Assembly (NCBI GenBank): GCA_947179485.1
Contig: OX359246.1
Location: forward strand, 12,400,001 to 12,464,000
From: Allacma fusca
Taxonomy: Eukaryota; Arthropoda; Collembola; Symphypleona; Sminthuridae
Direction of reading: 5' to 3'
DNA: 64,000 bases
The notes beneath the pieces were generated by a model that had not been told where the DNA came from, did not search any database, and saw only the letters and a list, made by a program, of their open reading frames with translations. This document shows positions 8,533 to 63,712 of this stretch, in pieces. How positions within the stretch are numbered: position 1 is the stretch's first letter; each line of letters opens with the position of its first letter. Made by a program: the position numbers and the translations under genes.

Positions 8533-8729
8533 TGAAGGAATTCCATTGCAGAACATAAAGTCGATAATATCCAATCCAAAATCACCAAATCAAATATGAT
8601 CTGAACTTCGGAAGTGGCGAATGCCAGATGTTTAATTCGCGGGGCGTGTCCTTGCCTATTTTAATTTTATCCCACTTTGCCCAAAAATGTTAAATTCCTG
8701 ATGTTTTTAACGTACCCAGAAAAACATTT
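8533..8729 (-). pseudogene. Decayed receptor C-terminal remnant downstream of copy 1
   Basis: Reads, on the minus strand, like the last part of the neighbouring receptor (TSEVKVIFD..., ...FWAKW...-like segments and the MEFL end), but without an open frame. It lies directly after the stop of the intact gene at 8730. Similar remnants follow every receptor copy in the window, so it was probably part of the duplicated unit. It lacks everything upstream of the M4 neighbourhood. Confidence 0.7.
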
Positions 8730-10910
8730 CTATGGTATTTGCTTTTTAGGAGGGAATTTTGCCAAGCCAAGGAATTCCATTACTAGACTTAATGTCGATA
8801 TCATCCAGCCCAAAAATATCACATGAAATATGACCTTCACTTCGGAAGTAGCGAATGCCAGTGGTTGAAACCCCTTCACACTAACATCGTCTACAATCCA
8901 TTCACGGGTTGTATTCTTGCTCAATCGTAATCTTATTTGATCCCATTTTGCCCAAAAATTGTAAATGCCCGAAGTTTGAAACATTCTCAATGTATCCAAT
9001 AAAACATTTCTATGGAATGTACTCGGTTCGTTGACAAACTTATAAAAGAATGTTTGCGTGAGGAAATGGTCTGCCACTCTCCAATTATGATGAAATGGTC
9101 GTGTCAGCTTCAGCTTCGAGATTACGTTTCTGAAATAAGCCCAATAAAAAGGGAAATCCTCCTGACGACAGACGAAAGCTGTTTTGGGCTGCAAGAGTCG
9201 GGTCGTAATTAGATCGTCTATATCCTTCTCACAAACAAATTCCGTATTTTCAAAAATATTTTCCAAAACAGGAAACAGTTTTCCCTTAGACTTTGCCCCT
9301 TTCAGAACTTGTCGTGACAGGTACGACGAATTGTAAAAATTGCAGTTGCTGTCATCAAGTCTCGTTTTGCGATGCAAGCATATAACCTCGTCCAATCGAT
9401 TTTTGAGTTTATTCTCATAATAACGTGTTTTGATTGACTGTAATTTCTCACAATTACTTCCACTCACGGCAGTATACAGCTTAAATTCGGCCAGCTGGTG
9501 GAAATATTTCCATTTAGTTTCAAAGGGGTAACTCACTGTGTAATCAGACTTCGCCACTGCCTTATAGTGGGTACCTATAACAATACATGACAAAATCCAG
9601 AATGTAAATAATATTGAGCTGACTTTGGCTGCCCATTTCCCACTCCTTGTTTCTAACCCCTTCCTATCCCCTTGTTCCAACAATGCTCCAATGTACCAGA
9701 GGAAAATCCCTCCTGCCCTTTTTGTTTTGTTTCCAGCTGTTATTAACACAACAAGGTAAGTAAGCCATGACATGATAACTACAGAACCAAGAACTACGAG
9801 CCAAACCACATCATGAAACGGTCTGGTGATCATGAATGAGCTATCCAAACTTTGAACACCGTCAGAGGTAATGAATTTGAAGCCATGCTGGTAGTAGTCA
9901 GAAATGACAAAAGTACTGTGAATACCGAACATGTCTTTTGTAGGCAAAATTTTCATGTAGCTTGTATACGCCGGGCATGAACTTTTCGCCCTACGAGAAA
10001 TTCGAGAGTAGTTTAGGCTCTTCCTTAAATGATAACGAGTTGTTCGTTCTAGTGTTTCAGATTTTTGTCTTAAAAATGGTAGAGCGTTGTCTTTGTTGAT
10101 TAGAGATTCTTCCCAGCCATGTTCCTTGTTAGTCCTTCCCCCGAGATACATCTTCCAACATATGTTTCTCCCATTTTCCGAAAACGTTGTTAATGCAGCC
10201 GCTATTTTCTTAACGTTAGTTAGCGGCTGGCGATTACGTCCGTAGTGTACCAAAAACTCCCTTTTCGCACAGTAGTAGCATGCGAATGCCCAGTACACCC
10301 TGGGTTTGTGATTAACTGAATATTTGTGTTCCAACTGAAATGTTAAAATAACGGTAGGATTGTTGACAATTTTACATGTCTGGGAAAAGGTTCTTTCAGA
10401 TTGTCCAGAGAAGAACCAGGAGTGAGTCAGAACAAAATTCATTTGTTTGGCGAAATAGACATACGAAGAAAGCATTGTTTCGAATAGGAATCTCTTAAAA
10501 AACATGGGATTGTTCTTTAAATCCGTATACTTAAAATCCACTTCTATGTTGTAGATCAGAAAAATGTTTATATGACAAGATAACATTCGGAATTTTGGTC
10601 GACGATCCTCTCCAAAACTTTGGTCTAGTGTGAATACGGGCTGGTTCAGTTTAATTTTAATTGTAGGAACTGAGACGGGCATGTCGGAGTAATTTACTAA
10701 TTCGGATGTGAATTCGAGAAAGTTTATAATGCAATTTTGATAATATTTAATTATTAAAGATAAGTCAACAGGCCTTCCCGGATTCACGTCGTAGGACTTA
10801 CTGATAGCTTCTGTTTTCGTAAAACTGAAGGCCTGCTCAAATTTTAGTTGGATACAAACCAATACGATAGAATATTTGAGCATTCTTACGATTAAGATGA
10901 TTAAGAGCAA
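8730..10910 (-). CDS. Ionotropic-receptor-like channel, copy 1 (intact, intronless)
   Basis: One uninterrupted 726-aa frame. The N-terminus is a signal peptide (MLKYSIVLVCIQLKFEQAFS from the second Met, coordinate 10883; the first Met at 10910 is also possible). An extracellular region of about 360 residues follows, then M1 (DVVWLVVLGSVVIMSWLTYL, about 366-390), a pore-helix motif WYIGALLEQG (about 405), M2 (SSILFTFWILSCIVIG, about 425-445), a second ligand-binding-like lobe ending in FQTSGIYNFWAKW, and M4 (VIFHVIFLGWMISTLSLVMEF, about 695-718). This order and the ALLEQG pore motif match the iGluR/IR superfamily. The canonical SYTANLAAF segment after M2 is absent, as in divergent IRs. Known IRs are ligand-gated cation channels in the plasma membrane, mostly chemosensory; the ligand cannot be told here. 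It is the closest paralogue of the copy at 24173-26317. There are no introns. No promoter element is obvious. Confidence 0.78.
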   Translation of the reverse strand: MLLIILIVRMLKYSIVLVCIQLKFEQAFSFTKTEAISKSYDVNPGRPVDLSLIIKYYQNCIINFLEFTSELVNYSDMPVSVPTIKIKLNQPVFTLDQSFGEDRRPKFRMLSCHINIFLIYNIEVDFKYTDLKNNPMFFKRFLFETMLSSYVYFAKQMNFVLTHSWFFSGQSERTFSQTCKIVNNPTVILTFQLEHKYSVNHKPRVYWAFACYYCAKREFLVHYGRNRQPLTNVKKIAAALTTFSENGRNICWKMYLGGRTNKEHGWEESLINKDNALPFLRQKSETLERTTRYHLRKSLNYSRISRRAKSSCPAYTSYMKILPTKDMFGIHSTFVISDYYQHGFKFITSDGVQSLDSSFMITRPFHDVVWLVVLGSVVIMSWLTYLVVLITAGNKTKRAGGIFLWYIGALLEQGDRKGLETRSGKWAAKVSSILFTFWILSCIVIGTHYKAVAKSDYTVSYPFETKWKYFHQLAEFKLYTAVSGSNCEKLQSIKTRYYENKLKNRLDEVICLHRKTRLDDSNCNFYNSSYLSRQVLKGAKSKGKLFPVLENIFENTEFVCEKDIDDLITTRLLQPKTAFVCRQEDFPFYWAYFRNVISKLKLTRPFHHNWRVADHFLTQTFFYKFVNEPSTFHRNVLLDTLRMFQTSGIYNFWAKWDQIRLRLSKNTTREWIVDDVSVKGFQPLAFATSEVKVIFHVIFLGWMISTLSLVMEFLGLAKFPPKKQIP

Positions 10911-11849
10911 CTGCAGATTTGCAAGTACAATCTGTTTTTCAAAAACAGCGGTCTAGTTTCATTCTTTAAGTATACTCGATGACAAAATCTTTTAAAATTT
11001 ATACAAATATTCTGGTTATAATCTTGATTTAGTTAGTGTGTTATCGACTTGTAATGCTCTCAAATGTCAGTGGAAATCTTCGATAAATCAGCCCTGTGAA
11101 AAATGTTATTGCAAAAATTTGGTTTCATCCAAAAAAAACTGTATAAAATTGATGACCGCTGAGACGTAGCTCACGGGTTATCTTAGCTGCATCGATTATT
11201 GATGAAGTCACCGACAAAGCTGGACTTTTGAGTTGATGAAAGGTAGTTACTATTGGCGGTGTTTGAAGTGATTTGCGTAAATATTTATAAATTAAAAAAT
11301 ACATTTTAAGGTTATTATTGACATAGATATATACTTCCAACGGTTGCAAACGACTATCCTTTACTCGGAATACCTCGTTCGGTGAAATTAATTTGAGGTT
11401 AAAGTACTACTCCAAATAGATTAGTTCGCAATAGATTAAATTCAATTTCGGTCGATTTAGTTTCTACTGGTTAACTTGGGATACGGAACGTCCGAAAGCT
11501 AGGGTGCCAAGAAGTTTTTATAAGGGTTGTGCTGATATAAGACGGTGTCACCTTATATGATCCGATTAACAGGAATTTAGTTGGAATTTCATATTTTTTT
11601 CAAAAATCAGTACGCTAAAAATCAATTTTCGTTTCGATCACAGATTTTTTATAGTTTTACGTTTTTAGTTTACAGTTTTCGTATAACTGAAGGATATGGT
11701 TCCAATTTTAAAGGAATAAATCTGAAAATTAAAAAGATAGATGACTATTTATATTTGCCGTAGTATAACTGCATAGCGTCGATTAATCAATAAAAATATT
11801 TTAAAATCATGTAATAATTGGTACGATTAGAACAATTTTACATAGGTTG
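10911..11849. other. Receptor 5' flank, shared with copy 2
   Basis: Non-coding DNA upstream of receptor copy 1. It aligns over long stretches with the 5' flank of copy 2 (26405-27790), so the duplicated block extended well past the gene. At 11327-11334 it holds a single ATATATAC, where copy 2 has two copies flanking a 550-bp insertion. It is therefore the empty site for the hAT-like element at 26817-27366. Confidence 0.65.
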
Positions 11850-12557
11850 GCTTGCTATATGTGTGCCCAAAAAAATGGCGGAACTTGTTTGCGCATGGAA
11901 GAGGTGCGTACCTGGCATTGCTGGTTCGGCCTAAAACTGTCCAAAGCAACTGTGAATTTGGGGAGAAAGCAACCTGCACTGATTTATCAACAGAGTATTC
12001 TAAGCATTCACTTCAATCTGGATGTGGTGTTAAGGAAATCCTTGCAGCCGCAAACAAATTAGCGATTGAGCAAGCAGGAGCGTACTTAGTTTCATTTTTT
12101 ATGAAACCAAAATTTATTGAAGTTTTTAATCTATTATTAAAAACAGGAACCGTTTTTGTACATTTTATATCACTCGTACCGATTTTAAAAACGTGATTGG
12201 GCTTGATCGGGCAAATATTACATCTGATCTGGCAGAAGTGGTTCGCGCGGTGTATGCATGGGAAGAATTGATCATTCCGGGTATTGAAATCCCGATTTTC
12301 AATCATGGTATTTTACAATCTGGACCAGGCTTGTTGCTCCTGCGAATCAAAATTCGTAAGGGTTAAAAATTTCAAACACATTCAAAACCATTTTAATCAA
12401 CAAATTTTATTCGAATGAAGGAAGGCATTTTATGTAGAGTCCCCATCTGCGATATTTGTAATTCTTTAGTTATAACTTCAGGTGAAGTAATTCGTGGAAA
12501 GAACACGGAAACGTTTGTAAAGCGAATTTTAAACCGAGATGTTGGTGGAGACTACTA
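11850..12557. other. Unassigned DNA with a short coding-looking stretch
   Basis: The beginning (about 11850-11880, 'tgtgtgcccaaa') still matches other receptor 5' flanks; after that similarity stops. A plus-strand stretch at about 12180-12350 is higher in GC and reads as a plausible peptide in one frame (GLDRANITSDLAEVVRAVYA and onward), but there is no start, no clear splice site and no family I recognise. It may be a transposon or gene fragment. Confidence 0.25.
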
Positions 12558-19857: not shown

Positions 19858-20146
19858 AATGTTTGAATGAGTTTTTGTCTAAATTTTTATATGACGTGGA
19901 CAAATTATCAAAATATGGCATCACTGTTAATGAAATTCTGTGTGAATTTTATGTTGTTAATTTTTTGTAGGTGACGCACCTGCTCGCGGTCTTTTGAAGT
20001 GTGTGAAGCCAAATAATTCTTTTTTGGTATGTGAAAGATGTGAGCAGGAAGGCGATTTGGTGAGAAGAGAAGAAGTATCCGGAACTGAATTGTCCATTTA
20101 GAACTGATGAACGTTTTAGAAAACAAAACCAGGAAGAACACGATAA
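19858..20146 (+). pseudogene. DNA-transposon transposase fragment ('CDAPAR...' family)
   Basis: Plus-strand pieces in more than one frame resemble a transposase-like protein common in arthropod genomes. Seen here are LNEFLSKFLYDVDKLSKYG, then GDAPARGLLKCVKPNNSFLV followed by a CxxC pair (CERCEQEGDL), then NCPFRTDERFRKQNQEEHDN. The last matches the family motif -APLRTDESFR...Q-EEHH. Frame changes between pieces show it is dead. It abuts the decayed PLP-enzyme tail at 20147, so the element's right side is cut off there. Confidence 0.55.
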
Positions 20147-20432
20147 TGCGCTCGTGAGTTTTTACAGAGAATTTTTACAGAGGCTTCTCAACTTTGCAAC
20201 GAGCTTGGGGTGCGGAGAGTTTAGTCTCCACGCCATAATTATTCTAATAATTACACGATATTTTTTCGCAGGACGCAGATAATGTCTCTGTAGGCACAAT
20301 ATATCCCATACGGGAATACCGCTGGAATTAAAGCCCAAAATGGGAATCACTGAAAATTTCGTTCGGTTATCATTGGTGCTTGAGTCAATTGACGATCTCA
20401 TTCAAGTCTTGGACCAAGCTTCGAATTACTAA
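20147..20432 (+). pseudogene. Decayed duplicate of the 3' end of the PLP-enzyme gene
   Basis: Matches 7888-8201: the last part of exon 6 (gcgctcgtgagtttttacag), the final intron (attctaataattacacg) and the last exon, including ATGGGAATCACTGAAAATTT and the terminal TAA. Because the intron is kept it is a genomic duplication, not a retrocopy. It is non-functional: the splice donor is lost, there are internal indels, and the gene's front is absent. The similarity continues past the stop into the intergenic DNA (to about 20730), as in the original locus. Confidence 0.88.
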
Positions 20433-20730
20433 GATGCTTTAAATACTTCTTTATATTCAATTGATGTAATATTTAGAAATACTAATTTTGCATGTCATTC
20501 TGAATATCGGATACTTGGTTGCATTTAATTTTGATTTTACTTTACACAATGACTTCGTGCTAATCAAATAAGTTCATTTTTTCAACTAAGGTAATATACT
20601 GTCAGGAAAACATTTTCGTGTAACAGAATATTCCGTGGTTTTAATTACCTTCGTGGTATAAATATGCAGTATCATACTTTATACAGGTTCGTTATAGATA
20701 CAAACATGCTACAGTAAACAGCAAGTTTAT

Positions 20731-23712: not shown

Positions 23713-23924
23713 ATATGTGTAATATGCTCTTCATCGTCACAATCCTTTAAGAAAAGAAAATCATCAAATTAATTACCTTCAAAATTATTTCCTAACTGGG
23801 CAGCCTGAAACCGCATAACTATCCATAGTATGTACGACATGTAGATTCTCTGTGTTTGGAAACACTAGCGTTTAGGAAGTTATTTGTACCTTGCCAGCCA
23901 GAATTCAATTGTGGAACTAAACGT

Positions 23925-24110
23925 CGTTAATATGTATCCAGCCCCAAATCAAAAATGACCTGAACGCCGGAAGTAACGAATGCCAGAGATTCAATTCGTG
24001 GGATGTGTACTTGCCTAAAATTTATAAATGCCTGAAGTTTGAATCATTTTCAATGTACATATATTACAAAATATTACTCAGGTATCTATTTGTTAAGTTA
24101 GCTGACATAC
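23925..24110 (-). pseudogene. Decayed receptor C-terminal remnant downstream of copy 2
   Basis: A degenerate match to the receptor end (the region 'atccagcccc...tcggaagtagcgaatgccag...ttgcc'), in no open frame. It occupies the same place relative to copy 2 as the remnant at 8533-8729 relative to copy 1. Confidence 0.65.
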
Positions 24111-24172
24111 TTGAAAAGAGGAGGAATTGATCCGACGCTAAAGAAATTTCCATATTTGACGTTATTACTATG

Positions 24173-26317
24173 CTATGGTTTAGGAAGGTATTTTACCAAG
24201 CCAAGGAATTCCATTGCCATAATCAACGTAGATATCATCCAGCCCAAAATTATTACATCAAATATGACTTTAACTTCGGAAGTAGCAAATGCTAGCGGTT
24301 GAAAATCCTTCACACTACCATCATCTACAATCAATTCGCGGGTCGTGTTCTTGCTCAGTCGTAATCTTATTTTATCCCATTTGTCCCAAAAATTGTAAAT
24401 GCCCGAAGTTTGAAACAGTTTCAATGTTTCCAACAAAACATTTCTATGGAATGTACTCGGTTCGTTGACGAACTTGTAAATGAATGTTTCCGTGAGGAAA
24501 TGGTCTGACACTCTCCAATTATGATGGAATGGTCGTTTCAGCTTCAACTTCGAGATCACGTTTCTAAAATAAGCCCAATAAAAAGGGAAATCCTCCTGAC
24601 GACAGACGAAAGCAGTTTTGGGCTGCAAGAGTTGGGTTGAAATGAGATTATCTAAATCTTTCTCGCAAGCGAATTCCAAATTTTCAAAAATATTTTCCAA
24701 AATGGGAAATAGCTTTCCCTTCGACTTTGCCCCTTTCAGAACCTCTCGCGCCCGGTACGATGAATTGTAAAAATTGCAGTTGCTGTCATCAAGTCTCGTT
24801 TTGCCATGCAAGCATATAACCTCGCCCAATCGATTTTTGTGTTTATTTTCATAATAACCGGTTTTGATTGATTGTAATTCCTCACAGTTACTTGTACTCA
24901 GGACAGTATACAGCTTAAATTCGGCCAGCTGGTAAAAATATTTCCATTTAGTTTCAAAGGGGTGACTCACTGTGTAATCAGACTTCGCCACTGCCTTATA
25001 GTGGTTACCTATAATAATGCATGACAAAATCCAGAATACGAATAATATTGAGCTGACTTTGGCTGCCCATTTCCCACTCCTTGCTTCCAGCCCTTTCCGG
25101 TCACCTTGTTCTAACAATGCTCCAATGTACCAGAGGAAAGGCCCTCCTGCCCTTTTTGTTTCATTTCCAGCCGTTATTAACACAACAAGGTAAGTAAGCC
25201 ATGACATGATAACTACAGAACCAAGAACTACGAGCCAAACCATATCCTGAAATGGCCTCGTGATCATGAATGAGCTATCCAAACTTTGAACACCGTCAGA
25301 CGTAATGAATTTGAAGCCCTTCTTGTAGTAGTCAGAAATTAAAAAAGAACTATGTACAGCGTCCTTGTCTTTCGTAGGCAAAGTATTGACGTAGCTCACA
25401 TATGACTGGCATGAACGTTTGCCCTTGCGAGATATTCGAGAGTAGTTTAGACTTTTCCTTAAATGGTAACGAGTTGTTCGTTCTAAGGTTTCAGGTTGTT
25501 GTCTTAAAAATGGTAGAGCAGTGTCTTTACTGATTAGAGATACTTGCCAGCCATTTTCCTTGTTACGCCTTCCTCCGAGATACATGTGCCAACAAATATT
25601 TCTCCCATTTTCCGAAACTGAGGTTAATGCTGCCGCCATTGCCTTGACGTTAGTTAGCTCCAGGTGATTACGTACGTTCTGTACCAAAAACTTATTTTTC
25701 ACACAGTAGTAGCATGCAAATGTCCAGTAAACTCTGGGCATGGGATTAACTAAATATGGGTGTTGCGACTCAAGTGTCAAAATGACAGTAGGATTGTTTA
25801 TGATTTTAGAAATCAGGGAAAAGGTTGCTTCAAATTGTCCAGAGAAAATCCAGGAGTAAGTCATAACAAAATCCATTTTTTTGGCGAAATAGCCATACGA
25901 AGAAAGAATGGTTTCGAATTGGAATCTTTTCAAAAAGATTGGATTGTTTTTGGGATCCGGATTCTTGAAATGCACTTTTATATTGTAGATCAGAAAAATG
26001 TTAATATTACAGGATAACATTCGGAATTTTGGTCGACGATCCTCTTCAAAACTTTGGTCTAATGTGAAGACGGGCTTGTTCAGTTTAGTTTTAATTGTAG
26101 GAACTGAGACAGGCATGTCGGAGTAATTTACTAATTCGGATGTGAATTCTAAAACGTTTATGATACAATTTTGGTAATAATTAATTATTGGAGATAAGTC
26201 AACAGACCTTCCCGGATTCACGTCGTAGGACTTACTGATAGCTTCTGTTTTCATAAAACTGAAGACCTTATCAAATTTCAATTGGATAAAAATCAATACG
26301 ATAGAATATTTGAGCAT
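24173..26317 (-). CDS. Ionotropic-receptor-like channel, copy 2 (intact, intronless)
   Basis: A 714-aa frame from the Met at 26317, chosen because it begins a signal peptide (MLKYSIVLIFIQLKF) aligned with copy 1. An in-frame upstream Met at 26404 would add 29 residues that do not look like a signal. The order is the same: extracellular domain, M1 (MVWLVVLGSVVIMSWLTYLV), pore WYIGALLEQG, M2 (SSILFVFWILSCIIIGNHY), second lobe, FQTSGIYNFWDKW, M4 (IFDVIILGWMISTLIMAMEF). It is very close to copy 1; the pore and M2 are nearly unchanged, which suggests constraint. The 5' flank carries a hAT-like insertion about 500 bp from the start. The 3' flank includes the decayed PLP-enzyme tail, showing this copy came from duplication of the copy 1 locus. 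Confidence 0.78.
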   Translation of the reverse strand: MLKYSIVLIFIQLKFDKVFSFMKTEAISKSYDVNPGRSVDLSPIINYYQNCIINVLEFTSELVNYSDMPVSVPTIKTKLNKPVFTLDQSFEEDRRPKFRMLSCNINIFLIYNIKVHFKNPDPKNNPIFLKRFQFETILSSYGYFAKKMDFVMTYSWIFSGQFEATFSLISKIINNPTVILTLESQHPYLVNPMPRVYWTFACYYCVKNKFLVQNVRNHLELTNVKAMAAALTSVSENGRNICWHMYLGGRRNKENGWQVSLISKDTALPFLRQQPETLERTTRYHLRKSLNYSRISRKGKRSCQSYVSYVNTLPTKDKDAVHSSFLISDYYKKGFKFITSDGVQSLDSSFMITRPFQDMVWLVVLGSVVIMSWLTYLVVLITAGNETKRAGGPFLWYIGALLEQGDRKGLEARSGKWAAKVSSILFVFWILSCIIIGNHYKAVAKSDYTVSHPFETKWKYFYQLAEFKLYTVLSTSNCEELQSIKTGYYENKHKNRLGEVICLHGKTRLDDSNCNFYNSSYRAREVLKGAKSKGKLFPILENIFENLEFACEKDLDNLISTQLLQPKTAFVCRQEDFPFYWAYFRNVISKLKLKRPFHHNWRVSDHFLTETFIYKFVNEPSTFHRNVLLETLKLFQTSGIYNFWDKWDKIRLRLSKNTTRELIVDDGSVKDFQPLAFATSEVKVIFDVIILGWMISTLIMAMEFLGLVKYLPKP

Positions 26318-27374: not shown

Positions 27375-28499
27375 ATACTTCCAACTGCTGTAAACGACCG
27401 TTCTATAGTCGAAATACCTAGTTCGGAGAAATTAATTTGAGGTTGAAGTACCACTCCAAATAAAATAGTTCGAAATATAAATTCCACTTCGATCGTTTCA
27501 TTTGTTTGCTCTTCTACTGGAAAACTTGGGACGTCCGAAAGCCAGGGTATGACAGAAGTGATTTCATCAGTGTTGTTACAGATTAAGTCTTGTTTCGTGT
27601 AACTGAAGGGCAACTCATATTTTAATGAAATAAAAATAAACCAATAGGATAGACGTGTTTGAAAATTTGTCCTAGTTTAGCAGAGTAGCGCTGAGTAGCC
27701 TTTTAAAATAAATTAAAATGACGTAATAATTCGTATACATAGAACAATTATTGTAACTGGGTTTGATATATCTGTGCCCAAAACGGTAGAGACTTTCTGG
27801 GTAAGCTAATTATTTAATTAACATCTTAATTATAATGTGTAAGAATGAATGTCTTTTGAAATAAGGAAACTTAATTTCCAGAATTGCAAAAATAATATAT
27901 AGTCAGTAATTATACTGCTTATTGCTAGTGATTAGCATTTACAGTATAGATGTTCTTCATTTAGATGTATTAGGTGTGACAAAAAATGCCTAACATCATA
28001 TTCACAAGACGAGAAAAGGTCGACAGAGTAAACGATAGCTGATCAAAATATCGTCCAGGCGACCAAAGCAGAAAAAATATTCAAAATTCACTATTAATGA
28101 AACTTCGTTTTTTTTGTAGAAATGTTTGTGTTATATTTTTTAGAATTATAAAAATTTAAAACATTCACCGACACAGTAAACTTCTTTGGTTAAATATATT
28201 ATAAATATATATACACCTCGTAAAGTCTTAACCTACTTAATCCATTTTTAAACCACTAATCTGAAAAAATGTACTTGGATAATTGGATTTTTTTATAAAA
28301 TCAACATTAAAACTTTCTTCAGACAGGATAGGCTTGAATATGTCATAAAAAACACGTTCCGCGTTTACGCTGGAGGATCAATAAAGGTCATAGTGTATAT
28401 GGTTTTGCAAAACTACAGAATATGCCTACCGAAAATGTCCGTTTCTCTAAATGGACGTTTTTAAAGTAAGGCTTTTTAGGACATTTCCGCATTTAAGTT
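27375..28499. other. Receptor 5' flank, then unassigned DNA
   Basis: Up to about 27790 this continues the block shared with the copy 1 flank (e.g. 'gatatatctgtgcccaaaa'). Beyond it the DNA is AT-rich and I recognise no gene or repeat ends. Confidence 0.4.
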
Positions 28500-40501: not shown

Positions 40502-42740
40502 CTATCCGAATAATTGATAGTTAGAAATCCAGTTTTCCAAAGCAAGGTAAAATATAAACTTTCCCGAATAGTGTCCCAGAAGATATCTGAGAAATTCCAT
40601 TGCCAAACTTAACGTTGACAAAACCCAACCCATAATCACCACATCAAATATAACTTTAACCTCGGAAGTAGCAAATGCCAGTGGTTGAAAGTCTTTCACT
40701 GTACCGTCGTCCTCAGCCAATTTAATGGACATGTTTTTGCCTTTGACAAATCTAATTTTATCCCATTTTGCCCAGAAATTGTAAATGCCTGAAGTTTGAA
40801 ACATTTTCAATGCATCCAGCAAAACATTTCTATGGTAAGTGCTAGCTAGGTTCGTTGATAAACTTGTAAAGGAATGTTTGTGTGAGGAAATGATCTGATA
40901 CTTTCCAATTATGATGAAATGGTCGTGACAGCTTCAGCTTCGAGATCACGTTTCTGAAATAAGCCCAATAAAAGGGGAAATCCTCTTGACGACAAACGAA
41001 GGCAGTTTTGTTATGCAAGAGTCTCGTCGCAAGGAGATTGTCTATATCCTCTTCACACAAAAATTTCAAATTTTTAGTGATATTTTCCAGAATGGGGATC
41101 ACCTGTCCTCTCCCAATGGAATTTTCTCCTTTAAGGACTTGTCGCTCCCGGTACGATAAAATGTATAAATTACAGTTTCTGTCTTCAAGTCTAGACCTAC
41201 CTCTCAAGCAAATAACCTCGCTCAATACGACATTATGATTATTTGTAGTATAATAGTTGTATTTGATTGATTGCAATTCCTCACAGTTGCTTGGACTCAC
41301 CACAGTGTGCAATTTAAATTGGGCCAGTTGGTGTAAATATTTCCATTTAGTTTCAAAGGGGTAACTTACTGTGTAGCCGGACTTTGCACTAGCCTTATAG
41401 ACGTTTCCTATAACGATGCATGACACAATCCAGAATATAAATAATATTCCGCTGATTTTGTCCGCCGATTTATTACTTGTTGACTCCAACCCTTTTAGGT
41501 CACCCTTTTCCAACAACGCTCCAATGTACCACAAGAAAATCCATCCTGCGCTCTTGTTAGTATTTCCGGCCGTTGTTAACAACACAATGCAAGTAATCCA
41601 TGACATGATCCCAACCGTCCCAACAACTGCAATCCAAACCAAATGCTGAAATGGTCTGGTAATCATAAATGAGCTTTCTTGAATTTGAACACTGTCAGAG
41701 GTAATGAATTTGTAGCTTTCCTGGTAGAAGTCAGTAAATACAATCTCCCCGGGAACTCTCTGGTTTATCAGTTGCTTGGTCAAACTTTTCAAGTAATTTA
41801 CGGATGGCCGACATAAATGTTTGGCTCTCCTATTATTTCTTGAGTAGTTAAGGCTTTTATATAAGTGGTATAGCGTTGTTCGTGTCAATGGTTCCGGTGA
41901 TTGACGTGAGAAGGGTGAAGGGGCAGCATTTTTGGTTGTGAACATTGCTGCCCAGCTGTAGTTCATGTGTGTTTTCCCATCACGGTACAAAGCCCAACAT
42001 ATATTTCGTCCATTTTCTGTAACTGATGTTAATGCTGCTGTGATTTCACTGACCTTAAGGAGCTCCTTGTAATAACTTCTTCCGTAGTGTGACATAAACG
42101 TTTTTTTCATACAGTAGTAGCATGTTAGTGTCCAGTAAATTGTGGGTTTCTGATTGGTTGGGTATTTATGTTCCGACTGGAATATTAAAATAGCAGTTGG
42201 GATATCTTCCGCTTTACAAATCCGGGAAAATATCCCTTCGAGTTGTCCAGAAGAAGTCCAGGCAGAAGTTACGACGATGTTAAGCCTTTTCCTGAAATAG
42301 AAGTTCCTGGGATGAAAAAGCGACGTCTGGGAATACAATTTATCCGAAATGGGCTGATATACTTTGAATTTCTGATCCATGAAATGAACTTTGACTCTGT
42401 ATATCAGAAATATGTAAATATGACAAGATGTCATTCGAAGATTTGGCCGAAGATCGTCTTGAGATAGTGGATCTATAGAGAAGATGGGTTGGTTCAATCT
42501 GGTTTTAATTGTGGGGACGTAGAGGGGCATTTCGGAGTAATTTACCACTTCGGATGTAAATTCCAGAAAGTTAATAACGCATGTTCGGAAATGATCAATT
42601 ACTGGGGTTATATTGACATAATCTGACGGATTCACATCTTGGGGTTCGAAGATTGCTTCGTTTGTTGTGAAACTGAAGGACAACTCAAATTTTAAATGAA
42701 GGAAAATCAATATTATAGTAAATCTGGTCATTCTGACCAT
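40502..42740 (-). pseudogene. Ionotropic-receptor-like channel, copy 6 (same frameshift as copy 5)
   Basis: Tandem twin of copy 5, with the same signal peptide, domains and GCTA duplication (40841-40848) that ends the frame after INEPS. It differs at 42346, giving Ser where copy 5 has Leu in the KVYQPI-DKL segment. Unlike copy 5 it keeps the original upstream DNA beyond 42758, so if either is transcribed from its native promoter it would be this one. Confidence 0.85.
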
Positions 42741-42758
42741 TTATCCTTCCAGGCAATT

Positions 42759-47167: not shown

Positions 47168-47929
47168 ATGACTAAAAAAGCCCATCGAAACAAAGCCAGA
47201 ATTATCCAACAAAACTCCTTCACATCCTCGGAATCTGACTCTCCGCCTTCTAACTTTGCAATGTATGAATCACACCACACAAACCCAAGCAAGCCGGAAA
47301 TTACAGAAGAGAAACTCAAATCAATTATGAACACCGTTTCGAAAGTATCTACAAGTGATCAAGTCTCTAAAATGGAACACTCCATTAAAGCGACCCTGGG
47401 AAAACTTCGAAGTGATGTAAATTTTGTGCACAACGCTTCGGAAGTCAATCGTGAGAAAATTGAAAATCTCTACTTGAAATCGGAGGAATTACAGAAAAAG
47501 CACAGGGAAAAGAATATCATATTGCGTGGGGTACTACAATCGGCAAATGAAACTCGAGAGGAACTCATGGCAGCCGTCAAACTTGTATTTGAAACACTTG
47601 ATGCGCAAATGAATATTATTGGAGACCTGTTTCGTCTAGGAAATGCCGAAAACCCTAAAAGACCGATTCTTATAGTTCATAGACATGAGTACTTTCGCCC
47701 CCCCATTTTCAAAAATATCAGGAAGTTAACGGACAGTCCTTACTCCATCAGAGACGATCTCTCAGCAGCCGGACAGCTTCAATTAAAATACATACATCAT
47801 CGCAAGGCTGAGAGAGATGCCGTCAACAAGGTCAAGTTAACTCGCGAAGGATTATACATAAAGGACTCCCTACACACCATAAATTCTGATGGTGACCTTA
47901 TGAAGGCTCCGGTCTCACAATTAGCCTGA
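47168..47929 (+). CDS. LINE ORF1 protein
   Basis: An open 253-codon frame. The N-terminus is polar and Ser-rich. The middle (about residues 45-115) is heptad-like and rich in Glu and Lys, as in the coiled coil that trimerises ORF1p. The C-terminal half has an RNA-binding-like fold signature (KNIILRGVL ... DLFRLGN ... RPILIVHRHE ... KNIRKL, ISIRDDLS-like). ORF1p of LINEs binds element RNA with chaperone activity. It is intact, although the downstream ORF is not. Confidence 0.7.
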   Translation: MTKKAHRNKARIIQQNSFTSSESDSPPSNFAMYESHHTNPSKPEITEEKLKSIMNTVSKVSTSDQVSKMEHSIKATLGKLRSDVNFVHNASEVNREKIENLYLKSEELQKKHREKNIILRGVLQSANETREELMAAVKLVFETLDAQMNIIGDLFRLGNAENPKRPILIVHRHEYFRPPIFKNIRKLTDSPYSIRDDLSAAGQLQLKYIHHRKAERDAVNKVKLTREGLYIKDSLHTINSDGDLMKAPVSQLA

Positions 47930-47959
47930 AATTGTTACGCTCCTTCAATTCAACCTACC

Positions 47960-50074
47960 TCTCCCCCAACTAAACCACTCAAAATTATATTCTGGAATGT
48001 TCATGGGATTGCCAATAAAACAATAAATTTCTTCAGTGAAACCTGGTCGACGGTTCCAATTAACTATTTTGATGATACACACACAACGTTTGTACTGAAC
48101 GCCACAAAAGATGTAAAGATGCACGGCAGACATAAAGGTGGCCTTTTTGCAGCAGTCCACAAAGCCATTATATTCGAGCTATACTTTAAAAATAATTGGC
48201 TAATTATACTAACATTTAAAAAACTCGACGAAATTAGAAATCTTGCAGTTCTGTTGTGCTATATCAACAAAATATCTGAGAAAGGTCAATTCAGTGAGAT
48301 GTTTACACATATTGAACAACTTGAACTGCTATCTTACAACATCATCCTAATGGGAGACTTTAACTCAAGAGTAGGAAGTCTCCAAACCTTGGGATCGAAA
48401 ACTCACAGGCACTCGGAAGACCAAACAGTAAACACTTTTGGCCAAAAATGACTAAACCTTGCGTCATCCTACAATCTTGTTCTCATAAATGGTATTAGTG
48501 GTCTTGAATCTTCCTCAAAATATACATTCGTCAGTAAAGCTGGTAACAGTACCATTGATTTATGTTTTGCGTCCACCTCCCTTGTTCAGTATTTCGAAAA
48601 TTTAATATCAGTGACGTAGAAGAGCTAGATCTAGTGTTAAGTCTGCTATTTATGCTTCAAAGCGTGCTTATTTTATATCCAAACTAAATGAAAATCCTGT
48701 GATATCGGGGGGAAATGTTTGGAAATTAGTCAACAATTTAACAGGCAAGGAAATGAAGTCACAGGTTAACTTAACAAAATTTGTTGATAATGACCTAAAG
48801 GTATAGTTTAACGTCAGCTGATAATTATTGACCAATCCATAGTCTACCCTTTGTCAACAAGGTTTTTGAAAAGCTAATGTCTCAACGTATTCTGACCCAA
48901 TGTAAATGTATGTCAGCATGGCTTTTGTAAAGGTAGATCCTGTTTTACTGCTTTATTTACTTTCTTACATGCAATATGTAACTACGTATGTATACTAAAC
49001 GTTAAATATCTTGCTGTTTATATTGATTTACGGAATGCTTTTAATTCTATATCCCGGTTACTTCTCTTGAAAAAACTTAGTTCTAGATTTAAGTGTGACA
49101 CTTGTACTCTGCATGTGCTAGCTGATTACCTTTCTAACCGTAATTTTCGGATTTACATGAATGGTCAAATTTCAGTGTTTCTCGGACATAAATTAGGTTC
49201 CTCAAGGATCAGTCATGGGACTTTTACTGTTCATATTGTATTTCGCCGACATTGTTATTGCTATTTCTGCTGGCGTGGTTGCATATGCTGACGACCTTGT
49301 TATTTATATTCATGGTACTTGTATGCCGACCATGTTTAAACTCATGCAGGCTATTCTTGACAACATAACCTGCTGGATGAATTTAAATGCTTTATGTATA
49401 AATGGTAATAAGACTAAGTACATGATTTTTCATAAATCCCCTATTTGTGATGTGAATGAGACACGTTGTGTAAATAATAAAGAAATTGAAGGTGTTTGGA
49501 CTTTTAGGTATCTTGGTGTAATTTTGGATGACAGGCTTCTTTTTAACGAACATGCAACGATTGTTTTAAACAAGGTAGCAAAGGCAATGCGAGTTTTGTT
49601 AAGAATTGGAAGGTATTTAACTATCGAAGTAAAATATCTTCTTGTAAATCCGTACGTTCTGTCACATGTTGATTACTGTATACTAGTTTGGAGCTGTGTC
49701 TGTAAAACCAAAGTGGATTTACTACAAAGTAAGACAGATGTAGACTAAGTTTTTGTAATAACACGAATGCTTTAAGATCTATGTCTATATCACATATATA
49801 CGAGACTTTTAATCTTTTTACTGTTGTAGAGCGGATACGTTACTATAGTTGTAAATTCATGTATACATTAGCGGTATTTGGTAATAATGATCCCTATATA
49901 AATGCGTCAATACTTGTCAAGTGTGGGTCGAGTACACTACGCTCGGCTAAATCAATTTACTTATACCATCCTCTAGTAAAATGCAAAGTTGGGGAACGTA
50001 ACATTTTATACAATTGTATAATATATTGGAATCCCCTCCCGGATATGTTGAGACTTCTATTTGATTTTTTCTAA
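47960..50074 (+). pseudogene. LINE ORF2 remains: endonuclease and reverse transcriptase
   Basis: Endonuclease: IIFWNVHGI at the start and LMGDFNSRVG at about 48345-48375, a catalytic block of APE-type nucleases, then a TGA (about 48449) inside the domain and an abrupt loss near 48620. Reverse transcriptase: KVFEKLMSQR-like, a glycine-rich 'SVMG-LLFILYFAD' stretch, catalytic AYADDLVIYI at about 49282-49310, NKTKYMIFHK and RYLGVILDDRLLF. The C-terminal part changes frame near 49745. Confidence 0.8.
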
Positions 50075-53419: not shown

Positions 53420-54221
53420 CAGAGCTTCTGCCGGGGACGGGACGTCGGGACACTGGACGGACCGGGACGGGACGTCCCCGGGGACAAAATAATTGTCCCC
53501 ATGTCGTAATCGGGACGGGACGGGGACAAAAAAAATTGTCCCAATTATATTCGGGACGGGACGGGGACAAAAAAAATTGTCCCCATTATATCAGGGACGG
53601 GACGGGGACAAAACAAATTGTCCCCACTATATTCGGGACGGAACGGGGACAAAAACAATTGTTCCCATTATATTCGCGACATGCTTTTTGGTCGTGTATA
53701 TAACGTGACGGGACGAGCAAGCATAGCAGAACAACGAGATGTTGTAGAAAATGAGGCTTGTTGCTCAAAAAATTCAGGAAGAATCTTGAAGCCACGATTG
53801 TATAAATGTGTTTTTATGTGTTTGGTATAAATATTGTTTGTACGAAATTTTCCTCATGTTCCGATTTTCGGTATGAGAATGTCGACAACTGTTTCCAGTA
53901 ATTATCGGGACGGTACAGGAATTTTGTTCACATGCCACGATTTTCAGGACCGGGGACAATATTTTTTTTTAATTTTGGGGACGGGACGGGGACAACGTTT
54001 TTTAAAAATTTTGGGGACGGGACGGGGACAAGATTTTTGTCCCCATGTCCCGACTTTCGGAACGGGACCTGGGACAACGTTTTTAAAAATTTTTGGGGAC
54101 GGGACGGGGACATGGTTTTTGTCCCCGTGTCCCGATTGACGGGACGGGACTGGGGACAAAGGTTTTTAAAAAATATGGGGACGGGGACGGGACAATAATT
54201 TTGTCCCCAACAGAAGCTCTG
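53420..54221. mobile_element. hAT-like element, 'GGGGACGGGAC' words, 8-bp target duplication
   Basis: Inverted ends CAGAGCTTCTG (53420-53430) and CAGAAGCTCTG (54211-54221), with further pairing through ggggac. Perfect 8-bp duplication ATTCGGGG at 53412-53419 and 54222-54229. Both subterminal regions are arrays of 'gggacgggacggggac' spaced by 'aaaaattgtcccc'. The middle (about 53690-53900) is non-repetitive and codes for nothing recognisable. Confidence 0.92.
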
Positions 54222-56600: not shown

Positions 56601-56774
56601 CTACATTTTCGCAACCCCTTCTCAAAAGAAAATCATCAAACAAATTATCATTAAAAATAATATCCTAATTTTGAAATCTGTACCCACATAATTATCCCTA
56701 TGCACATATGTATAAGTAACTAAGTGACATCTAAAGGCAAAATCTGTCTACTAACACTAACATTTAGGACGGTA
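56162..56774. other. Receptor 3' flank with (TA)n
   Basis: From about 56470 this aligns with the copy 3 flank at 29740-29985 ('caattatttcatac', 'ttcgtt-tagat-caaact', 'aataat-tcctaattttgaaatctg'). No gene present. Confidence 0.5.
56536..56598. repeat. (TA)n microsatellite
   Basis: About 30 TA units, placed where the paralogous flank of copy 3 has 'catatgtatgtaaatg', so it expanded after duplication. Confidence 0.95.
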
Positions 56775-57220
56775 TTTGTACCTTGTCAGCCAAAGAATTC
56801 AATTGGGGGACTTCGTCGATAATATCCATCTCAAAATCAAATATGACCTGAACTTCGGAAGTGGGGAATGCCAAAGGTTCAAATTGCGAGACGTGGTCTA
56901 ACCTAATCTATGTATATCTATCCCACTTTGCCCAAAATTTATAATTTCCGATGTTTGAATCATTTCACATAACAATACATGGTTTAAAATATTTCTATGG
57001 TATTTGTTAGACTCGTTGCTAAACTTGTGAAGAGGAGCAAATGACCCGACACTTTCCAATAATTGTAGTGAAATCGTCGTGTCAGCTTCAGCTTCGACAT
57101 TACGTACCTGAAATAAGCCCAACAAACACGGAAATCCTCTTGACGACACACAAATTGAGCTACAAGCGTCGGGTCAAAACGTGATATGTCCTTCTCACAA
57201 AGAATTTCCATATTTTACGT
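56775..57220 (-). pseudogene. Decayed receptor C-terminal remnant downstream of copy 8
   Basis: Minus-strand pieces include ILCEKDISRFDPTLVAQFVC, the QEDF-WAYFRYVMSKLKL segment and a later frame with FHYNYWKVSGH. Frame changes and loss of the M4 part show it is dead. It has the same position as the other remnants. Confidence 0.75.
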
Positions 57221-57227
57221 TATTATA

Positions 57228-59393
57228 CTATGGCTTAGTATGGTATTTTACCAACCTAAGGAATTCCATTGCAAGAATTAACATCGATATCATCCAGCCC
57301 AAAATTACCACATCAAATATGACCCTCACTTCGGAAGTAGCAAATGCCAGCGGTTGGAAGTCCTTCACAGTAGCATCGTCAACAATCAAATCACGGGACG
57401 TGTTTTGGCTCAATCGTAATCTTATTTTATCCCATTTTGCCCAAAAATTGTAAATGCCCGAAGTTTGAAACGTTTTCAATGCATCCAACAAAACATTTTT
57501 ATGGTATGCACTCGGCTCGTTGATAAACTTGTAAATGAATGTTTTTGTGAGGAAATGATCTGAGATTTTCCAGTTGTGATGAAATGGTCGTAACAGTTTC
57601 AGCTTCAAGATCACGTTCCTGAAATAAGCCCAATAAAAAGGGAAATCCTCCTGACGACAAACGAAAGCTGTTTTTGGATGCAAAAGTCGACTCGAAATGA
57701 GATCGTTTATATCCTTCTCACAAATAAATTTCATATTTTGAAAAACGTTTTCCAAAATGGGAAATAGCTTTCCCTTGGATCTTGCACCTTTCAGAACCTC
57801 CCGTGACCGGTACGATGTATTGTAAAAATTGCAGTTGCTGTCATCAAGTTTCGTTTTGCCATGCAAGCATACAACCTCGCCCAATCGATTTATGTGTTTA
57901 TTCTCATAATAACTGGTTTTAATCGATTGTAATTTCTCACAATTATTTCCACTCACGGCAGTATACAGTTTAAATTCTGCCAGTTGGTGGAAATATTTCC
58001 ATTTGGTTTCAAAGGGGTAACTCACTGTGTAGTCGGACTTCGACACTGCTTTATAGTGGTTACCTATAACAATGCATGACAAAATCCAGGATATGAACAA
58101 TATTGAGCTGACTTTGGCTGCCCATTTATCCCTCCTTGATTCCACCCATTTCCTATCCCCTTGTTCCAACAATGCTCCAATGTACCACAGAAATATCCCT
58201 CCCGCTCTGTTGCCTTTATGCCCAACTGTTATTAACACAACTAGGTAAGTAAGACATGTCATGATAACCACAGAACTAAGAACTACGAGCCAAACCACAT
58301 CTTGAAAAGGCCTCGTGATCATGAACGAACTATCCACACTATGAACACCGTCAGAGGTAATGAATTTGAAGCCCTGCTGGTAGTAGTCAGAAATTAATAA
58401 ACTACTGTGAACTCCGACCTTGTCTTTTGTAAGCAAAGTTTTCATATAACTTGCATACGACTGACATGAACGTTTCGCCTTTTGAGAGTTTCCAGAGTAG
58501 TTGAGTCTTTTCCTTAAATGATAACGAGTTGTTCGTTCTAGTGTTTCTGATTGTTGCCTTGGAAATGTTAGAGCGCTGTGCATCCGGATTAAAGATTCTT
58601 CCCACCCATTTTTCCTGTTGGACCTCCCCCCGAGAAAAAAATGCCAGCATATATTTTTCCCATTTTCTGAAACTGACGTTACTGCTGTCACTATTTCCTT
58701 GACGTCAGTTATCTGCTGGCGATTACATCCGTAGTGTGCCAAAAGCTCTATTTTTACACAGTAGTAGCATGCCAATGTCCAGTAAAGTTTGGGTTTGTGA
58801 TTTACTGGATATTCGTGTTCCAGCTTAAGTGTTAAAATGACGACAGGATTGTTTACTATTTTACAAATCAGGAAAAAGGTTCCTTCGAATTGTCCAGAGA
58901 AAATCCAGGAGTGACTCATAATAAAATCCATTTTTTGAGCGAAATGGCCATACGAAGAAAGCACGGTTTGGGATTGCAACTTCTGTGAGAAAATTCGATA
59001 GTTCTTGGGATTCGGATGCTTAAAATGCACTTTTATTTTGTAGATCAGAAAAATGTTGATATGACAAGATAACGTTCGGATCTTAGGTCGACGATCCCCG
59101 TCTAAACGTTGGTCTAGTGTAAAATGGGGCTGATTCAGTTTAGTTTTAATTGTAGGAACTGAGATGGGCATGTTGGAATAATCTACCAATTCAGATGTGA
59201 ATTCCAGAAAGTTTATAATACAATTTGAGAAATATTCAATTATTTGGGTTAAGTCACCATACCCTGTCGGATTTACGTCTTGGACATCCCATGTTGCTTC
59301 TGTTTTCGAAAAACTGGAGGACTGTTCAAATTTTAAAGGAAGCAAAATTAATACAATACACAATGTGGAAAATTTGACGTAGCTTAATGGCAT
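57228..59393 (-). CDS. Ionotropic-receptor-like channel, copy 8 (intact, intronless)
   Basis: Open for 721 codons from the Met at 59393 (MPLSYVKFSTLCIVLILLPL, a good signal peptide). The frame is open further to a Met at 59534, which would add 47 residues without signal character. Domains are in the family order: extracellular region with the CYYC motif, M1 (VVWLVVLSSVVIMTCLTYLV), pore WYIGALLEQG, M2 (SSILFISWILSCIVIGNHY), second lobe with the HPKTAFVCRQEDFPFYWAYF segment, FQTSGIYNFWAKW, M4 (IFDVVILGWMISMLILAMEF). It is the closest relative of broken copy 3, and the flanks of the two also match. A putative plasma-membrane ligand-gated channel; ligand and tissue unknown. Confidence 0.77.
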   Translation of the reverse strand: MPLSYVKFSTLCIVLILLPLKFEQSSSFSKTEATWDVQDVNPTGYGDLTQIIEYFSNCIINFLEFTSELVDYSNMPISVPTIKTKLNQPHFTLDQRLDGDRRPKIRTLSCHINIFLIYKIKVHFKHPNPKNYRIFSQKLQSQTVLSSYGHFAQKMDFIMSHSWIFSGQFEGTFFLICKIVNNPVVILTLKLEHEYPVNHKPKLYWTLACYYCVKIELLAHYGCNRQQITDVKEIVTAVTSVSENGKNICWHFFLGGRSNRKNGWEESLIRMHSALTFPRQQSETLERTTRYHLRKRLNYSGNSQKAKRSCQSYASYMKTLLTKDKVGVHSSLLISDYYQQGFKFITSDGVHSVDSSFMITRPFQDVVWLVVLSSVVIMTCLTYLVVLITVGHKGNRAGGIFLWYIGALLEQGDRKWVESRRDKWAAKVSSILFISWILSCIVIGNHYKAVSKSDYTVSYPFETKWKYFHQLAEFKLYTAVSGNNCEKLQSIKTSYYENKHINRLGEVVCLHGKTKLDDSNCNFYNTSYRSREVLKGARSKGKLFPILENVFQNMKFICEKDINDLISSRLLHPKTAFVCRQEDFPFYWAYFRNVILKLKLLRPFHHNWKISDHFLTKTFIYKFINEPSAYHKNVLLDALKTFQTSGIYNFWAKWDKIRLRLSQNTSRDLIVDDATVKDFQPLAFATSEVRVIFDVVILGWMISMLILAMEFLRLVKYHTKP

Positions 59394-60605: not shown

Positions 60606-61088
60606 GCAATTAACGTTTACGTTAGCTTTTACATTCGGGTTCAACTAAGCGCAAACCCTTTAATTCCAGGCCATTTCCATTTCAGTGCAAGACGGCGGCA
60701 CAAGGGAATTTTAGTTATTTTCATTCGATCGGAAATTGGACATTTTGAGCAGAATTGTGGATAAACTAGAATAATTTATACATTTTCCTAGTTGTTTTAA
60801 AATTTCTTGACAATTTTGTAGGAAAGCCTTCAAAATTGCCTTGTTTGGTCTTTCCATTGCTGAGCATTGAAATTGTAATATTTTCATTGAATCACTTTGA
60901 GATGTTACAAATTAACGATATGAGCACTATACCATGCACACCTTTTAATAATTTTTATAATAAATTTAACTCACAATGGTTTATATATTATATGTATTTA
61001 TTGTGCCAAGGAGAAGACCCATACACAAATGACACATTTTCACAACCCTTTCACAAAAGAAAACCATAAAATTATTTACCATTAAATG
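60606..61088. other. Unassigned DNA, then receptor 3' flank
   Basis: No gene recognised. From about 60985 the sequence matches the 3' flanks of other receptors ('cacaaccctttcacaaaagaaaa-cataaa'). Confidence 0.35.
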
Positions 61089-61963: not shown

Positions 61964-62114
61964 ATTTCCTAGTTCAAAAATCTGAAACCTTATATTTATC
62001 CATATTATGAACATATGTACATATGTAATTATATGAAATTAATCAACAACGTTAGGTAGAATCTCTATGCTTGGGTACACTAGCAGTTAGTAAGGTATTT
62101 GTACCTTGCCAGCC

Positions 62115-62555
62115 CAGGAATTTCATTGCTCAAAACGTCGATTTTACCCAGCCCAAGATCATAACATCAAATATGACCTCAACTTCAAAAGTTGCAAATA
62201 CCAGCGGTTCAATTCGCATGTCGTGCTCTTGCCTAATCTAATTTTATCCCACTTTGATCAAAATTATTGAAACGAAGTTTGAAAAATTAGTCATCTACAT
62301 ATGTATACTCTGTTAAAATTGAATTATTACATTACTAAATTATGTATCTACATATATAGAAACTTTGCGCGAGGAAATGAACTGAGTTTTTCAAGTTCTG
62401 ATGAAATGGTCGTGTCAGCTTCAGCTTTGAGATTAATTTCCTGAAATAAGCTCAATAAAAAGGAAAATCCTGTTGACGGCACACAAATCCGCCTACAAAA
62501 GTCGGATCGACATGAGATCCTCAATGTCTTTCTCACAAAGAATTTTTATAGTTCA
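62115..62555 (-). pseudogene. Decayed receptor C-terminal remnant downstream of copy 9
   Basis: Degenerate match from the cytosol-side lobe (CEKDI-like, QEDF-FY) to the M4 neighbourhood, with internal TA-rich insertion at about 62290-62360 and no open frame. Confidence 0.7.
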
Positions 62556-62589
62556 AGGTGTTACAACGGCTTCGGTGTAACGGCTCGGT

Positions 62590-63712
62590 GTAGGAGGGAA
62601 TTTTACCAAGCAAAGGAATTCCATTCCCAAAATTACCGTCGATATCATTTAGCCCAAAATTACCACATCAAATATGACCATCACTTCAGAAGTAGCGAAT
62701 GCCAGCGGCTGGACGTCCTTTCCAGTAGCATCGTCAACAATCAATTCACGGGACGTGTTTTGGCTCAATCGTAATCTTATTTTATCCCATCTTGCCCAAA
62801 AATTATAAATGCCCGAAGTTTGAAACTTTTTCAATGTATCCAACAAAACATTTCTATGGAATGTACTCGGTTCGTTGACGAACTTGTAAAAGAATGTTTG
62901 CGTGAGGAAATGGTCTGCCACTCTCCAATTCTGATGAAATAGTAGTGTCAGCTTCAGCTTCGAGATTACCTTCCTGAAATAAGCCCAATAAAAAGGGAAA
63001 TCCTCCTGACGACAAACGAAAGCTGTTTTGGGCTGCAAGAGTCGGGTCGAAATAAGATAGTCTATATCCTTCTCACAAACAAATTCTATGTTTTCAAAAA
63101 TAGTTTCCAAGATGGGGAATAGTTTTCCCTTGGACTGTGCCCCTTTCAGAACTTGTCGTACCAGGTACGATGAACTGTAAAAATTGCAGTTGCGGTCATC
63201 AAGTCTCGTTTCGTCGTGCAAGCATATAGCCTCGCCCAATCGATTTATGGGTTTATTCTCATAATAACTGGTTTTAATCGATTGTAATTTCTCACAATTA
63301 TTTCCACTCACGGCCGTATACAGTTTAAATTCGGCCAGTTGGTGGAAATATTCCCATTTGGCTTCAAAGGGGTGACTCACTGTGTAGTCGGACTTCGCCA
63401 CTGCCTTATAATGGTTGCCTATTATAATGCATGACAAAATCCAGAATACGAATAATATTGAGCTGACTTTGGCTGCCCATTTACCACTTCTGGATTCCAA
63501 CCCTTTCCTATCCCGTTGTTCCAGCAATGCTCCAATGTACCAGAGGACAATCCCCCCTGCTCTGTTTGTTTTATGACCAACTGTTATTAACACAACTAGG
63601 TAATTAAGACATGACATGATAACCACAGAAGTAAGAACTGTGAGCCAAACCATATGCTGAAAAGGCCTCGTGATCATGAATGAGCTATCCAAACTGTGAA
63701 CACCGTCAGAAG
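62590..63712 (-). pseudogene. Ionotropic-receptor-like channel, copy 9 (broken, 5' part cut by a transposon)
   Basis: Open from SLDSSFMITRPF through M1, pore WYIGALLEQR, M2 and the second lobe to VMVIFDVVILG. A TAA then replaces the conserved Trp of M4 (62649-62651); the following residues (MISTVILGMEF) are still readable. The pore Gly is Arg. Upstream, at 63713, the gene is interrupted by a transposon end, and its N-terminal part is not seen before the window ends. It belongs with copies 3 and 8. Confidence 0.83.

Follow-up and report, generated by a model that had tools for sequence, protein, structure and literature searches.

The 64,000-base window analysed here (contig OX359246.1 of the Allacma fusca assembly GCA_947179485.1, positions 12,400,001 to 12,464,000; 36% G+C, no N) contains a tandem array of seven single-exon receptor-like genes, probably a cluster of ionotropic receptor (IR) type in the course of birth and death and ordinary in kind. 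Behind each of the seven genes lies, on the same strand, a decayed copy of the C-terminal part of the receptor. For five of them (A, B, C, F and G) the sequences firmly indicate that the dead remnant and the gene were duplicated together as one unit, since a deletion of 31 nt and the junction between gene and remnant are shared among them. The two other copies (D and E) form a nearly identical tandem pair, whose remnant appears to represent a different or older class.

Organisation of the gene array

The seven copies, designated A to G along the window, all lie on the minus strand. Open reading frames were found in gene A (8730-10883, 717 codons), gene B (24173-26317, 714 codons) and gene F (57228-59393, 721 codons). 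The remaining four genes are broken. Gene C (30348-32419) contains several frameshifts and has lost about 88 nt in adjacent pieces, gene D (36558-38727) is interrupted by a 4-nt insertion at codon 620, and gene E (40571-42740), which is near-identical to D, carries the same 4-nt break at this codon. Gene G (62586-63713) is truncated by 1,014 nt at its 5' end and interrupted by a premature stop at about 62649. As E duplicates D including the remnant at 99.975% identity, the array comprises six distinct units. The seven-copy array on the minus strand, with three intact and four broken genes, is thus real as it had been described in the original prediction, a reading of the bare sequence.

The synonymous divergence (dS) amounts to 0.29 between A and B, 0.37 between A and F and 0.43 between B and F, and to 0.83-0.91 between D and these three genes. 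The ratio of nonsynonymous to synonymous divergence (omega) was 0.32 for A-B, 0.40 for A-F and 0.34 for B-F, with codon-bootstrap intervals of 0.25-0.44, 0.33-0.51 and 0.27-0.44, respectively. Since omega lies between 0.32 and 0.40 and all bootstrap intervals remain below 0.52, the open genes A, B and F are, judging from their codons, retained under selection. Between C and F, dS is lower in the 5' part of C (0.17) than in its 3' part (0.40; C at 30348-32419), a possible sign of gene conversion among the copies.

The dead tails and the duplicating unit

The remnants were detected by tblastn with four family proteins as queries (expect value, E, up to 1e-3). Six of the seven were recovered in this way, and the remnant of B, which was not in the tblastn list, was found by DNA match (23901-24017 to remnant A; 23713-24139 to F) and by inspection of the translation by eye. 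Remnant A (8530-8743) abuts gene A and remnant B occupies 23901-24139, as seen in the match at DNA level. The remnants C (29988-30333), F (56763-57216) and G (62100-62553) were each traced by tblastn, DNA match and translation. Remnant D (34868-35763) and its copy, remnant E (38881-39776), belong to a long class. According to their translations all seven are crossed by stops and frameshifts.

A decayed tail copy behind every gene, as originally predicted, was therefore confirmed in all seven cases, and the seven positions given for the remnants lie within 24 bases of 8530, 23901, 29988, 34868, 38881, 56763 and 62100. Their description as the last third of the receptor fits some of them, but not others, since the remnants span from about 80 to 250 codons, with those of D and E being the longest. 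Counted in the 726-aa frame, the tails of C, F and G begin near residue 555 and those of D and E near residue 459. The claim that such an arrangement would not arise by chance also stood, because in the window the sole tblastn match outside the units (four queries, E up to 1e-3) was a receptor head upstream of gene B. In the shared region the identity is 67-80% between remnants and genes, 62-80% among remnants and 79-90% among genes; the lower identity of the remnants is as expected for sequence that would be older or unconstrained.

The alignment of the gene ends with the remnants revealed a frame-breaking deletion of 31 nt common to remnants A, B, C, F and G, i.e. to five of the six distinct remnants, which is present in none of the seven genes and in neither the D nor the E remnant. 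Furthermore, the units B, C and F share a junction behind the stop, AATAACGT-(A/C)AAATATGGAAATT, which was found nowhere else in the window. Remnant G starts at the same receptor position as those of B, C and F after a diverged spacer. In unit A the junction is eroded, a further loss having set the gene end against the remnant, so that the frame of gene A reads into the adjacent remnant and ends three codons past the usual stop of the family. Between stop and remnant there are at most about 35 bp in units A, B, C, F and G (12-34 bp in some, abutting in A). The sequence past the remnant is shared as well, namely by A with F, B and C, by B with F, C and G, by C with F and G, and by F with G. A flank 3' of the remnant (8416-8520 in unit A, minus strand) is common to units A, B, C and F, and a displaced 46-bp piece of it lies near G (61036-61081).

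The original proposal that "remnant + gene" was the duplicating unit accordingly holds for these five units, based on the shared deletion, junction and flanks, and is visible directly in the copy from D to E. It may not extend to the array as a whole, as the D/E remnant appears to be of a different or older class.

Phylogenetic analyses agreed with this in part. In both trees the remnants A, B, C, F and G formed one group (67/72; 86/74 in the longer alignment), in which C and F were the only strongly supported pair (95/97, 96/96). With weak support (24/60) the best tree of the 506-column alignment united the six distinct remnants, to which gene D was adjacent (96/96). In the best tree of the longer alignment remnant D joined gene D (67/70). 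A topology pairing every remnant with its own gene was 127 log units worse and was rejected by all tests (approximately unbiased, AU, test p 1.3e-19). Single own-gene pairings were tested for F, G, A and D. The pairing of F was rejected (AU 9.9e-9), and those of G and A were rejected by the AU test (9.4e-5 and 0.0015) but not by the Shimodaira-Hasegawa (SH) test (0.135 and 0.071). The pairing of remnant D with gene D was not rejected, being 0.6 log units below the best tree; that the D/E remnant could not be placed weighs against the history proposed below. Remnants joining various genes instead of one another would have spoken against the original proposal; in the trees this concerns at most remnant D, and the other five group together.

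The gene-gene and remnant-remnant distances showed no significant correlation, 26 of 120 relabellings reaching the observed r for five units and 407 of 720 for six, in a test that is limited by the short and indel-rich remnants. A topology in which the remnants follow the branching of the genes was not rejected (AU p 0.12), which decides nothing. The lack of significant parallelism would thus neither back nor rule out co-duplication, and it is the shared scars that carry the argument.

The D/E pair

The D/E pair (34729-42758, minus strand) consists of two 4,013-bp units of remnant and gene in clean head-to-tail tandem, which differ by one mismatch in 4,017 bp (99.975% identity). The copy from D to E displays the remnant and gene as a unit directly, although it may also be an effect of the assembly. 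The remnant in this pair lies about 0.8 kb beyond the gene and is without the 31-nt deletion of the other five, and its flank has no match to the flanks of the other units. Inside remnants D (35048-35297) and E (39061-39310) a 126-bp tandem repeat was detected, which is probably younger than the remnant itself, since the repeat copies are 99.2% identical.

At sites invariant among the genes, remnant D shares changes with remnants A, B, C, F and G at 3, 2, 8, 5 and 6 positions, where a rough estimate under independence gives 1.1, 1.6, 3.1, 2.7 and 3.2, respectively. At 85 sites only gene D departs from the base common to the other genes; there remnant D has the D base 28 times, the common base 49 times and neither 8 times. 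These site patterns lean mildly towards an old shared origin of remnant D with the others. A corrected description of the array would therefore name a remnant common to five units and another class belonging to a single, recently doubled unit.

Affiliation of the predicted proteins

The receptor-like proteins are likely ionotropic receptors, as suggested by weak matches to ionotropic glutamate receptors (iGluRs) that lie in register. In Pfam searches the channel segments of B and A matched a single family, Lig_chan (PF00060), with E values of 0.52 and 5.7, respectively, and in register in both cases; these matches concern two of the five channel segments and are below the cut-off (10.5 and 7.2 bits versus 30.8). 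An hhalign comparison with the rat iGluRs GluA2, GluK2 and GluN1 aligned M1, pore and M3 in register over 95 columns with 26% identity. Its score of 28.5 was surpassed by none of 30 column shuffles and by one of 60 block shuffles, and lay above the 19.6 of the reversed profile. The M4 segment, aligned separately, gave 34 columns with a score of 18.9 versus at most 16.7 in 60 block shuffles. Hydropathy peaks occur at the places of M1, M3 and M4 in all three open proteins (363-381, 418-436 and 684-702 in A and B; 370-388, 425-443 and 691-709 in F), with extra peaks in F at 2-20 and 173-191. Together with the M4 match they give a topology of two membrane segments around a re-entrant pore, followed by S2 and a third membrane segment. 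The array furthermore has the mostly single-exon genes, the tandem arrangement and the pseudogenes that the accessible parts of PMC2924276 and PMC6938034 describe for IR expansions.

Several results weigh against this affiliation. None of the four whole proteins matched a Pfam family at E up to 1 and no N-terminal domain was recognised, and PDB sequence searches with whole proteins and two short segments returned no glutamate receptor. The channel segments of F and D had no Pfam match and that of G only one to the unrelated DUF4491 (E 0.04); of two further parts, one of 400 residues from F gave SMIM5_18_22 (E 0.98) as its single match and one of 403 residues from A gave none. The hhalign probability was just 8% for the channel, where one block shuffle scored higher (32.9), and only 2% for M4, and the global alignment was outscored by at least 8 of 60 shuffles. 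A signal-peptide-like hydrophobic N-terminus exceeded the threshold in only one of the three open proteins. AlphaFold gave unusable models, with a mean predicted local distance difference test score (pLDDT) of 27 for the whole protein B (8-row alignment) and of 32 for its channel and S2 part (6 rows). The resemblance to the iGluR channel assumed in the original prediction is thus present in the in-register local alignments, but it is weak and has no whole-protein Pfam match beside it.

The motif GALLEQG aligns with GAFMQQG of the rat iGluRs. Its E is the pore residue 403 in A and B and 410 in F, the position that aligns with the Q/R site of GluA2; the motif reads GALLEKG in D and E, with K two places on, and GALLEQR in G. 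The SYTANLAAF segment, which had been reported as missing, is instead degenerate, with HYKAVAKSD at its place and two of nine residues identical in the hhalign alignment. By the rule used in PMC6307864, that an iGluR proper keeps at least four of these residues, the proteins are something other than iGluRs proper. For divergent IRs a low end of 8.5% is given in the part of PMC2924276 at hand. The weak scores would be those that a divergent IR gives, without proving one. Scans for relatives in viral and prokaryotic contigs yielded 7 and 15 pattern matches, none of which was confirmed, as expected for an animal gene.

Neighbouring genes and other features

An exon of a pyridoxal phosphate (PLP) enzyme of the Cys/Met metabolism (PF01053, E 2.6e-38) was found at 7634-7972 on the plus strand, convergent with receptor A; we take it to be part of a cystathionine gamma-lyase-like gene. 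The open frame at 6239-6667 matched no family. The 3' end of the lyase-like gene recurs at 20145-20685 (plus strand) as an incomplete and broken copy, which was carried in the A/B duplication. This copy is collinear with the flank of unit B; about 3 kb of inserted sequence lie before the point (23713) where the flank resumes. A sensitive search of the whole window detected no lyase piece near units other than A and B. Dead 5' receptor heads, which resemble the 5' ends of F and C, are located 0.8-1.3 kb upstream of gene A (11675-11893, minus strand, detected in a narrower search) and of gene B (27588-27798, minus strand, detected by tblastn). From the lyase tail copy and the dead heads beside A and B, the sequence places the extent of the A/B duplication from inside the lyase-like gene to past the head of a second receptor.

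Elsewhere in the window, open frames on the plus strand at 1824-3105 encode an ABC transporter, with matches to ABC_membrane_2 (1824-2465, E 1.1e-51) and ABC_tran (2596-3105, E 7.7e-8), which we assume to be of the peroxisomal ABCD type. The region 47168-50074 (plus strand) is probably a broken retrotransposon of the long interspersed nuclear element (LINE) type, in which 49197-49745 matches RVT_1 (E 9.8e-11). The open frame at 47168-47929 had no significant Pfam match and is presumably ORF1-like (i.e. similar to a first open reading frame). Tandem arrays with units of 41, 36 and 82 bp, rich in CGGGAC/GGGGACA words, occupy 53479-54209. A tRNA search with bacterial settings and an Rfam search at the gathering score gave no match within the window.

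Proposed history and rival explanations

We consider it likely that the window holds an arthropod-type cluster of divergent, single-exon IR-like genes which has grown by unequal crossing-over of a composite segment. An early rearrangement would have put the C-terminal part of one receptor copy, from about residue 555, right behind the stop of another. This tail would then have died and acquired the 31-nt deletion, and the segment "flank - dead tail - gene" beside the cystathionine gamma-lyase-like gene would have been duplicated into the units A, B, C, F and G. In the A/B duplication a dead receptor head and the lyase gene end would have been taken along as well. The more diverged copy D, whose tail is its own or an older one, would have been duplicated with this tail very recently, giving rise to E. 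We infer this order of events. As proposed for other IR arrays in the accessible text of PMC6938034 and PMC2924276, unequal crossing-over between tandem copies would be the most likely mechanism. The receptors probably serve as subunits of ligand-gated cation channels in sensory neurons, presumably for smell or taste, where they would act with a co-receptor; both the channel function and the sensory role are suggested by analogy with the family.

That each gene gained its tail independently by a local partial duplication of its own 3' end seems highly improbable: the shared 31-nt deletion, the shared junction and the rejected own-gene pairing refute it for A, B, C, F and G, and only the D/E tail, which falls 0.6 log units from the best tree when paired with gene D and joins it in the longer alignment (67/70), would suit such an origin. 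A young gene, e.g. a retrocopy, inserted into an older dead copy would have split a head upstream from a tail downstream, which is the picture seen around A and B with their dead heads and dead tails. However, no separate head was found upstream of C or F, where the head-like promoter region is continuous with the gene, or in the 290 bases upstream of G inside the window, and such an insertion demands the loss of most of the middle of the old copy; we regard it as very unlikely. It is hardly credible that the remnants are alternative C-terminal exons in use or separate short genes, since stops and frameshifts cross all seven and the 31-nt deletion breaks the frame in five, even though about 90 codons of the D/E remnant stay in a single frame with an identity of about 70%. 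That the dead tail is retained for its use as 3' untranslated region (3'-UTR) of the live genes is improbable as well. It would agree with the short distance, at most about 35 bp, from stop to remnant in the five units and, in B, C, F and G, with the lack of AATAAA and ATTAAA words between the stop and the distal remnant end, while A has two ATTAAA inside the remnant. Against it, these words occur only about 2.2 times per kb on the minus strand, so that a few hundred bases free of them prove nothing. In D and E, moreover, one such word lies between gene and remnant. If the tail did serve as 3'-UTR, live transcripts would contain a dead receptor tail, in full or in part, and the tail would provide a standing homology for unequal crossing-over and gene conversion, promoting the growth of the array.

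The weak profile scores and the failed structure predictions could also mean that the proteins belong to another multi-pass membrane family and are no ionotropic receptors. This seems quite unlikely in view of M1, pore and M3 lying in register, the separate match of M4, the right order of these segments and the resemblance of the single-exon tandem array to divergent IRs. The doubling of D and E might be an assembly artefact in which two haplotypes were joined, as the single mismatch and the identical break in both copies would suggest; the clean head-to-tail tandem of 4,013 bp in a window without N makes this rather unlikely. The preferred account remains that of a composite segment of dead tail and gene multiplied by unequal crossing-over.

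Comparison with known systems

Campodea augens (PMC6938034), Blattella germanica (PMC6175461) and drosophilids (PMC2924276) have divergent, mostly intronless IR expansions that are rich in pseudogenes. In the accessible parts of these reports the expansions resemble the present array in their single-exon genes, their arrays, their many pseudogenes (mostly with few lesions in Campodea and Blattella) and their many shorter fragments, and unequal crossing-over or non-allelic recombination is named as the mechanism. The arrays of Campodea are, as far as the text at hand describes them, commonly on both strands, whereas here all seven copies are on one. A fragment recurring with every gene, as observed here, is absent from the descriptions in those parts. 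A search of the literature for chemoreceptor arrays with a recurring truncated copy, which for the most part did not reach subscription papers, found no such description.

The closest structural parallel seems to be the human RCCX module (STK19-C4-CYP21-TNX), in the available part of PMC8362596 a tandem repeat that carries truncated gene pieces: STK19B comprises only 914 bases of the 3' end, and TNXA is a pseudogene formed from a truncated part of TNXB, in which 120 bp are deleted. As in that module, the same truncated piece with the same breakpoint recurs among A, B, C, F and G, but not between D/E and the rest. The truncated pieces of RCCX, according to the same text, derive from neighbouring genes, whereas the main piece here is the tail of the amplified family itself, in addition to the end of the lyase gene in unit B. 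With iGluRs proper, represented by rat GluA2, GluK2 and GluN1, the proteins share the order M1 - pore - M3 - S2 - M4 by hydropathy and local alignments; they differ from them in having only two of the nine SYTANLAAF residues, E at the pore position and no recognised N-terminal Pfam domain.

The array hence represents a known kind of system, of which it is a clean example, and its merit is a legible unit. Chemoreceptor families change fast, and the segment copied per event is usually inferred from gene counts. Here the scar, the junction, the captured lyase piece and the near-unchanged D/E copy let the duplicated segment be read directly, and each unit sets a dead, neutral tail beside a constrained gene.

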